Source: Prevotellaceae bacterium (GTDB taxonomy: Bacteria; Bacteroidota; Bacteroidia; Bacteroidales; UBA932). Taken from it: DNA of 55,189 bases. Each line of letters opens with the position of its first letter. Position 1 is the first letter of the stretch. The notes beneath the pieces are model-generated. The model had not been told where the DNA came from. It saw only the letters and a program-made list of their open reading frames with translations, and ran no database searches. A program made the translations under genes and the position numbers. Location of the stretch: contig JAISNL010000170.1 in assembly GCA_031276235.1 (NCBI GenBank), forward strand, positions 1 to 55,189, in the 5' to 3' direction. This document shows, one piece after another, positions 15,850-55,189 of the stretch.

Positions 15850-15936
15850 TTTAGACGCACATCTAAATACATTTTAGACGCATATCTAAATACGTTTTAG
15901 ATGTACATCTAAAGACTGTTTAGATGCGCATCCAAA
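15850..15936. repeat. Array of four 23-bp palindromic repeats
   Basis: Four units begin at 15850, 15873, 15896 and 15919, an exact 23-bp period. Each is an 18-bp near-palindrome, TTTAGA-N6-TCTAAA, followed by 5 bp. Unit 3 (TTTAGATGTACATCTAAA) is a perfect palindrome. The arms are conserved, the six central bases vary (CGCACA, CGCATA, TGTACA, TGCGCA), and unit 4 has one arm substitution. A vague fifth unit may follow at 15942. The array sits in an otherwise gene-free stretch (15240-16089). Confidence 0.9.
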
Positions 15937-16089
15937 TCGTATTTCGACAGCCAAAGAAATTGTTGTTAGCAACTGAAGCTGCTTCACGGCAAGTGAACGG
16001 CTACACATACTGTCAAAATGGCAATGATGTTTTTTAGAAGTAGCCTGTCCTGTTTTAGCGGCGTTACATCCGCTTATCGAAGATTTGCC

Positions 16090-53840: not shown

Positions 53841-54428
53841 TTATTCATTCGTTTTGGTTTCTACCGCATCGCGCCCTGCCTGCAAGGCTTTGATATTTAT
53901 ATCTGCAATGTTGCCGCCTTTGGCTGAAAATAAATTGCGAACGGCATTTGCCAGACTTTCAAACCTGATATGTATAAAATGAGATGCCGCTCCAAGCATC
54001 ACCATATTCGACGAGCGCGGAGAGCCTGCGTTTTTTGCTATTGCATCTGCATCGATAATGATATTATTGGGATTTTTGTTGATTTCGGCAACAACCATTT
54101 CCATATCAGGATAATTTGGAATATTGACAAATGGAACGCTGTTTGTAATTATCCGTCCATTTTTGGCAAGATACGGAATGTATCTCAGCGATTCCACTGG
54201 TTCTATTGATAAAATTATATCCGCCTGCCCCAAAGGTATTAAATCCGAACATATTTCCTTGTCGGATATTCTTAAATTCGACTGCACATCTCCGCCGCGC
54301 TGGCTCATTCCGTGCACTTCTGCCTGTTTTATAAACAGGTTGCTTTCCACTGCGGCAAGTCCTATTGCTGCCGCTATTGACAGAATGCCCTGTCCGCCTA
54401 CTCCTGCTAAAATTATATCTGTTTTCAT
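53841..54428 (-). CDS. iorB: Indolepyruvate:ferredoxin oxidoreductase, beta subunit
   Basis: The 195-aa protein is the gamma-type subunit of 2-oxoacid oxidoreductases: TDIILAGVGGQGILSIAAAI, the VHGMSQRGGDVQSNLRISD block and PRSSNMVMLGAASHFIHI. With IorA (the TPP and Fe-S subunit) it turns arylpyruvates into aryl-acetyl-CoA, reducing ferredoxin. iorA normally precedes iorB directly. Here the upstream 0.7 kb holds only repeats and a small ORF, so iorA is either displaced or missing. Confidence 0.9.
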   Translation of the reverse strand: MKTDIILAGVGGQGILSIAAAIGLAAVESNLFIKQAEVHGMSQRGGDVQSNLRISDKEICSDLIPLGQADIILSIEPVESLRYIPYLAKNGRIITNSVPFVNIPNYPDMEMVVAEINKNPNNIIIDADAIAKNAGSPRSSNMVMLGAASHFIHIRFESLANAVRNLFSAKGGNIADINIKALQAGRDAVETKTNE

Positions 54429-54450: not shown

Positions 54451-54763
54451 CAGTTGACAGTTGACAGTTATTTGTTTACTGTTTACTTTTCTGGATTGCT
54501 TCGCTGACGCTCGCAATGACGCGCTGCCGCTGTGTTTGTTCGTCATTGCGAATCCGCAGGGTGAAGCAATCCAGAAACTTTCAACTTTTACCTTTTCACT
54601 TTTACCTCTTCACTCCTCTGGATTGCTTCGCTGACGTTCGCAATGACGCGCTGCCGCTGTGTTTGTTCGTCATTGCGAACCCGCAGGGTGAAGCAATCCA
54701 GAGTTATTATTATGTTTTTCATTTCATTATTAATTATCATTCTCAATCGTCAACTGTCAACTG
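54451..54763. repeat. Composite element: 15-bp inverted ends around two 84-bp hairpin units
   Basis: CAGTTGACAGTTGAC (54451-54465) and its exact reverse complement (54749-54763) enclose 283 bp. Inside are two direct copies of an 84-bp unit, 54491-54574 and 54618-54701, which differ at two positions. Each unit is itself a nested inverted repeat: CTGGATTGCTTC pairs with GAAGCAATCCAG at the ends, TCGCAATGACG with CGTCATTGCGA inside. The 43-bp gap between them is pyrimidine-rich. No reading frame of note is present. It behaves like a MITE- or REP-type element. Confidence 0.85.
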
Positions 54764-54796
54764 CTTATTATCAATACTTTTAATGTCCATCGCTCC

Positions 54797-54934
54797 GATA
54801 TAGGCAACCTATATGCCCCGATATAGGCAATCTATATGCCCCGATATAGGTAACCTATATGCCCCGATATAGGCAACCTATATGCCCCGATATAGGTAAC
54901 CTGTATGCTCCGATATAGGCAACCTGTATGCTCC
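54797..54934. repeat. Array of six 23-bp palindromic repeats
   Basis: Six units start at 54797, 54820, 54843, 54866, 54889 and 54912. Each reads GATATAGG-[CT]AA-CCTATATGCCCC or a close variant; the core ATATAGG / CCTATAT forms a 7-bp hairpin with 3-base apex. Units 5 and 6 share CCTGTATGCTCC changes. The last five bases of the unit precede the first copy, so the array begins part-way through a repeat. The sequence is unrelated to the array at 15.9 kb, but the 23-bp period is the same. Confidence 0.92.
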
Positions 54935-54958
54935 GACTGTATTGCAATCATATCCTGT

Positions 54959-55153
54959 TTATACATTCAGTACATAATCAAAAAGGAATGTACGCGGCTC
55001 AATGAGGTTGTGCATTCCTTGCGAATACTGCGTAGTGATGCTCAATTTGTAGTCGCCGGCGGTTACTACGCGACCAAAACGGTCGTCTTTTCTGTCGGTA
55101 AGGGTCAAATCGTACAGTTCGACCATTACGCTTGTTTTTTCGTTATTTGTCAT
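54959..55153 (-). CDS. Short HU/DUF4469-type protein, probably internally deleted
   Basis: This 64-aa ORF begins MTNNEKTSVMVELYDLTLTD and ends EPRTFLFDYVLNV. The N-terminal half, with DRKDDRFGRVV, resembles the opening of Bacteroidales HU-like DNA-binding proteins. The rest, AGDYKLSITTQYSQGMHN, resembles the last strand pair of their C-terminal DUF4469 domain. Members known to me have well over 200 residues. The middle appears to be missing, in frame. It may be a relic or a genuine mini-protein. Upstream sequence runs off the window. Confidence 0.6.
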   Translation of the reverse strand: MTNNEKTSVMVELYDLTLTDRKDDRFGRVVTAGDYKLSITTQYSQGMHNLIEPRTFLFDYVLNV

Positions 55154-55189
55154 AATTTGTTTGTATTATTTAGTTATTAAAATCAGTTG

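Follow-up and report, generated by a model that had tools for sequence, protein, structure and literature searches.

Two tandem arrays with the same 23-bp step and unrelated bases lie in one bacterial contig, and the question addressed here is what sets the step and what sets the bases. The window, that is the whole stretch of 55,189 nucleotides analysed, is an entire contig (C21) from a draft genome of 2.62 Mb, assigned to Bacteroidales by its relatives and proteins.

Structure of the array and its neighbourhood

The array at 54795-54936 (no strand assigned) consists of 6.2 units of the form GATATAGG-YAA-CCTATAT-GCCCC, each carrying a dyad. TRF gave a period of 23, 6.2 copies, 93% matches, 0% indels and a score of 235, and inspection of the sequence revealed six full units at 54797-54934. 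The dyad of the unit, ATATAGG/CAA/CCTATAT with 7-bp arms, was significant against unit shuffles in the contiguous-stem test (p = 0.004). These results are in accordance with the preliminary description, which had claimed six units of exactly 23 bp with a central dyad. The unit pattern proposed there holds as a consensus and fails as a statement of identity across units, since CCTGTAT-GCTCC stands in units 5-6 and AATCTATAT in unit 2. The second array, at 15850-15937 (no strand assigned), is built on the 23-bp dyad unit TTTAGACGCACATCTAAATACAT (TRF: 3.8 copies of 23 bp, 81%); both arrays are real and their units unrelated, as had been stated of their bases.

The window unit gave no strong match among 300 genomes of the family, and in its own genome it is unique except for one diverged relative, the C73 array. 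Comparison of the window with Rfam revealed no structured-RNA family at the array, a tRNA being the only match. A CRISPR array was rejected, as the units run head-to-tail without spacers, unique or otherwise.

The array is intergenic, with a gene remnant on one side and, on the other, iorB as the next gene (53841-54428, minus strand), named from its sequence as an indolepyruvate oxidoreductase beta-like subunit. Conservation of the array at the iorB locus was considered and rejected; in relatives the region upstream of iorB is without such an array and the gene order differs. Two copies of an inverted repeat, TCTGGATTGCTTC...GCAATGACG / ...GAAGCAATCCAGA, were located at 54474-54703 (no strand assigned). 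This repeat is abundant in the genome, where its many relatives often flank other arrays, and it is probably incidental to the window array.

The remnant (54959-55165, minus strand) was recognised from its ORF, from alignment with the C62 gene and by HMM as a PF14848 (HU-DNA_bdg) plus PF14734 (DUF4469) gene with an in-frame deletion. It encodes 64 aa from an ATG, the first ~31 codons being fused in frame to the last ~31, and alignment with the intact C62 paralogue indicated that ~540 bp are absent. In the 5' part, between the deletion point and the end of the contig, the two genes differ by one base. The Pfam match to DUF4469 is weak (6e-4), and a home-made HMM of the family gives 6.9e-17. A short linker (54937-54958, no strand assigned) joins the array to the stop codon; the C62 gene is followed by a homologous linker, yet the C62 array has a different unit. 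As the window gene has been gutted by the in-frame deletion, its array would be a leftover of that gene or would be served by a paralogue.

Distribution and period of arrays in the genome

TRF was run in stretches on 1.375 Mb of the draft, about half of the genome, and arrays were counted from a score of at least 80 and at least 2.9 copies, where rows of different period can belong to one array. The count revealed 27 arrays of period 21-23 bp (11 at 21, 4 at 22 and 12 at 23), 16 arrays at 41, 42 or 44 bp, and about one array at each of the other periods from 18 to 40. After merging, ~46 arrays with periods of 20-24 or 40-46 bp remained in 1.38 Mb, which agrees with the earlier prediction of many arrays in the genome. 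The periods do not vary widely in the genome scan that had been proposed as a check; they cluster at 21-23 and 41-42 bp. The earlier suggestion of a shared mechanism therefore stands in that something is shared, whereas 23 bp as the sole period does not, as 21, 22, 23 and 41/42 bp are all preferred. Other Bacteroidales have fewer arrays than the source genome; 1.0 Mb of their loci contained 11 arrays at 21-23 bp, several of which are coding or low in complexity, and no such arrays were found by TRF in 200 kb of G021.

For the 21-bp arrays no single associated protein family emerged. Those at L103:4057-4671, L067:19343-19664 and L030:8733-9031 reach 15 copies and have different units, and their flanks, homologous over 150-480 bp and without a recognisable gene, are possibly MITE-like carriers. 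Another 21-bp array, of 9 units, lies ~340 bp from a gene for an MksE condensin subunit (PF21980; L023:5721-6296). Coding-type repeats of ~78 bp, possibly YD/RHS-like, occur at several places in the genome (L028:5732-7231, L064:8383-9914 and, with 36-42 bp, L121:18872-19114).

Association of arrays with protein families

When array flanks were compared with one another, some proved homologous although their arrays have unrelated units. The window and C62 arrays agree in their right flanks at 82% over 125 bp, and the C14 and C72 array flanks have 408 bp in common at 81%. ORF analysis identified this common flank as a gene, the proteins of which match PF14848 and PF14734 (DUF4469, Ig-like) in Pfam with E-values of 1e-24 to 1e-39; a homologous solved structure is PDB 4FMR, an uncharacterised protein. 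Five DUF4469 genes were found in the source genome with Pfam. All four full-length ones have a 23-bp array 3' of the stop codon, at 5 bp (C102), 19 bp (C62), 69 bp (C72) and 23 bp (C14), and the four arrays have four different units. The fifth gene, C56, is cut by the contig end and has no array behind it. In the control, an array of 20-24 bp period lay no more than 250 bp 3' of 9/960 other ORFs, which gives P(4/4) = 8e-9.

The same arrangement was observed in Parabacteroides distasonis, where each of the six DUF4469 genes found has a 23-bp (once 24-bp) array immediately 3' of its stop codon, again with six different units. The records are labelled plasmids and were taken as chromosome pieces; ~1 of ~168 other CDS in 200 kb had a 3' array (Fisher p = 2e-10). 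In relatives, DUF4469 genes lie ~250 bp (G006:C209) and ~70 bp (G008:C21) from arrays related to the unit of the likely counterpart gene. No clear array was seen directly behind the DUF4469 gene of Treponema saccharophilum or behind two from fecal scaffolds, and the viral contigs held no DUF4469 relatives. The window array conforms to the pattern, a 23-24-bp array directly following a PF14848+PF14734 gene, which here is the deleted remnant, whereas the gene beside the array is intact in C62, C14, C72, C102 and P. distasonis.

Two further families showed arrays with a step of their own. DUF6078 genes have a 22-bp dyad array 3' in 4/4 cases (two in P. distasonis, one each in Bacteroides finegoldii and T. 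saccharophilum), a count that includes the two P. distasonis genes which came out of the control and gave rise to the link. DUF6261 genes have 41-42-bp arrays in 6/8 cases, mostly upstream; the six are three genes of the source genome, where five were readable, one in Prevotella nigrescens and two in P. distasonis. A degenerate 22-bp dyad array lies behind the HU-HIG-like gene C105. A 41-bp array of 10 units at L161:4267-4690, from an uncultured Parabacteroides, was tied to no named family. The protein families were picked after seeing the data and few species were sampled; the P. distasonis DUF4469 genes, the P. nigrescens gene, the second P. distasonis DUF6261 gene and the B. finegoldii and Treponema DUF6078 genes were examined after the hypothesis had been formed.

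The period of the arrays follows the protein family and the unit sequence follows the individual gene. The gene-linked arrays sit at gene ends, which answers the proposed check of array position against genes. As the period tracks the protein family, a family-specific recognising mechanism fits better than one generating mechanism, the preliminary description having left the choice between generating and recognising open.

Dispersed arrays and mobility

Many arrays in the genome have no adjoining family gene, and that at 15850-15937, which adjoins none, is a dispersed array. Dispersed copies, identical or similar in unit, exist for several gene-linked arrays (C14 with C110 and C70; C72 with C49; C102 with C90 and C41), and the same holds for the 41-42-bp arrays of C50, C62 and C54. 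Such copies could also be explained by a mobile element, with gene and array together as its autonomous form. The in-frame-deleted copy and the dispersed arrays would then be MITE-like and non-autonomous derivatives, and the array would be the end recognised for transposition, a role proposed for BrickBuilt of P. gingivalis. The window copy would suit this explanation, as it derives by deletion, matches C62 almost completely in its 5' part and is homologous to it on both sides, and common flanks do occur at some dispersed arrays (L055/L103, L067/L103/L030, C90/C41). A precedent exists in BrickBuilt, a 23-nt minisatellite inside a MITE (PMC4596501). However, arrays of the same unit (C14, C110 and C70; C72 and C49) are without common flanks, the unit differs between two copies with similar flanks, no transposase domain was seen and the IS5-type ends of BrickBuilt are absent near the window array, so that mobility was considered unlikely.

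Dyad symmetry, covariation of arms and folding

The full-unit circular dyad score proved too weak for single arrays and the contiguous-stem test was used in its place. Contiguous dyad stems were commoner than in shuffles over 20 units (combined p = 3e-10), with weak dyads in some gene-linked units (L267, L269, C49-type). The C73 array has the core AGG-TTG-CCT and the spacer CGGGGC as in the window unit, with outer arms TATG/CATA against ATAT/ATAT. Along the C49 array a constant CGCATA core is flanked first by TCACC/GGTGA arms and then by CCC/GGG, and in the P. distasonis DUF6078 arrays and diverged DUF6261 arrays the arms likewise change together. These joint changes point to selection for symmetry. 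The spacing of the half-sites is not strictly constant. At L036:17047-17172 and L059:8735-8962 the unit type changes along the array around a constant core, as if the new units had been copied in from a related array.

Such symmetry could also act in RNA, the arrays being transcribed as trains of hairpins that serve as terminators, mRNA stabilisers or autoregulatory RNA targets. Most arrays fold better than shuffles on both strands, many stand directly behind stop codons, and the window array reached z = -5.6 on the plus strand against -1.4 on the other. Selection for hairpins, however, would give the reverse of the 21 A.C against 6 G.U mismatches counted in sense orientation; over 22 arrays there was no strand preference, the antisense strand being better in 11/22. 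The window array has no U-tract terminator, the DUF6261 arrays are mostly upstream, and hairpins need no fixed period within a family, which together make an RNA role improbable for the arrays as a whole. As the window array alone folds better as plus-strand RNA, it may give rise to an antisense RNA. Binding of DNA rather than RNA was favoured on the sequence features, because the gene partner is of the HU type, the period is fixed within a family and the half-sites lie about one helical turn apart.

Neutral minisatellites, arising by slippage at chance palindromes and without function, would account for the different copy numbers of the arrays and for the variants that neighbouring units have in common, and other intergenic repeats abound in the genome. 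This explanation was rated very improbable, as it leaves the linkage to three families, the family-specific periods and the covarying arms unexplained, together with the recurrence in Tannerellaceae, Bacteroidaceae, Prevotellaceae and Treponema.

Comparison with known systems

The nearest known repeats are BrickBuilt and PgRS of Porphyromonas gingivalis, along with plasmid iterons. BrickBuilt is a 23-nt minisatellite in a MITE, with a leader and a tail bearing IS5-like ends; BrickBuilt and PgRS elements have been interpreted as MITEs, with no link to the DUF4469, DUF6078 or DUF6261 families (PMC4596501). The present arrays resemble it in being 23-nt tandem repeats without spacers, with dyads, intergenic, several per genome and in Bacteroidales, and differ in that one unit family runs through all BrickBuilt copies whereas here the units vary by locus and stand behind HU/DUF4469 genes. 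Allowing 2 mismatches, no IS5-like terminal inverted repeat (GAGACC...) was found at a distance of up to 5 kb from the window array. A BrickBuilt MITE is therefore not supported for the window array, which shares the spacerless 23-nt repeats and the intergenic position and lacks the IS5-like ends and the many copies of the same repeat. P. gingivalis W83 has MITEPgRS/MITE464 repeats of 41 nt, and repeats of 41, 23 and 22 nt (as cited in PMC4596501). The period set 41, 23 and 22 is the same as here; as far as these repeats are described there, they carry no protein-family assignment, whereas here 41-42 bp belongs to DUF6261, 22 bp to DUF6078 and 23 bp to DUF4469.

Iterons and partition sites (Rep/iteron, ParB-parS, ParR-parC) are tandem sites of about two helical turns beside the gene of their own DNA-binding protein. 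The present arrays share this arrangement, with binding presumed here, and differ in being chromosomal, in having several paralogues each with an unrelated unit, and in the HU-type protein; no replication or partition partner was seen. Expansions of the HU superfamily in Bacteroidetes, including HU-HIG and related HU-like families (Pfam PF18291), have reportedly been analysed. The HU fold, the lineage-specific expansion and the 22-bp dyad array of the HU-HIG-like C105 gene connect them with the present case, and to our knowledge no array association has been reported for these families. Among the open papers searched, none mentions DUF4469 or DUF6078 and a single one, irrelevant here, mentions DUF6261; the pairing of gene and array is not described in the open papers, to which the search was confined.

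Conclusion

The window array is best read as the cognate tandem binding site of a DNA-binding protein of the HU/DUF4469 type, with a probability of roughly 0.6. A protein dimer would sit on each dyad and neighbouring dimers would touch, so that the geometry of the protein on DNA would set the step of 23, 22 or 41-42 bp. The specificity of each paralogue would set the bases, paralogues would ignore each other's arrays, and dispersed copies would give the same protein additional sites. Likely uses would be autoregulation, regulation, and the marking or organising of chromosomal sites (local chromatin organisation). DUF6078 (22 bp) and DUF6261 (41-42 bp) would form parallel systems, and in the window the protein part is lost.

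A wider proposal, put forward tentatively and at slightly less than even odds, is that in Bacteroidales several unrelated families (HU/DUF4469, DUF6078, DUF6261 and perhaps HU-HIG) give each member a private tandem array of palindromes, with the step set by the family and the bases by the member. This would amount to a many-channel, self-addressed labelling of DNA in which protein and array diverge together. If true, it would provide a first clue to the function of three so far uncharacterised domains, DUF4469, DUF6078 and DUF6261, would explain the 22/23/41-bp minisatellites of Porphyromonas and relatives, and would supply naturally matched proteins and DNA sites with which the acquisition of sequence specificity by an HU-type protein could be studied.
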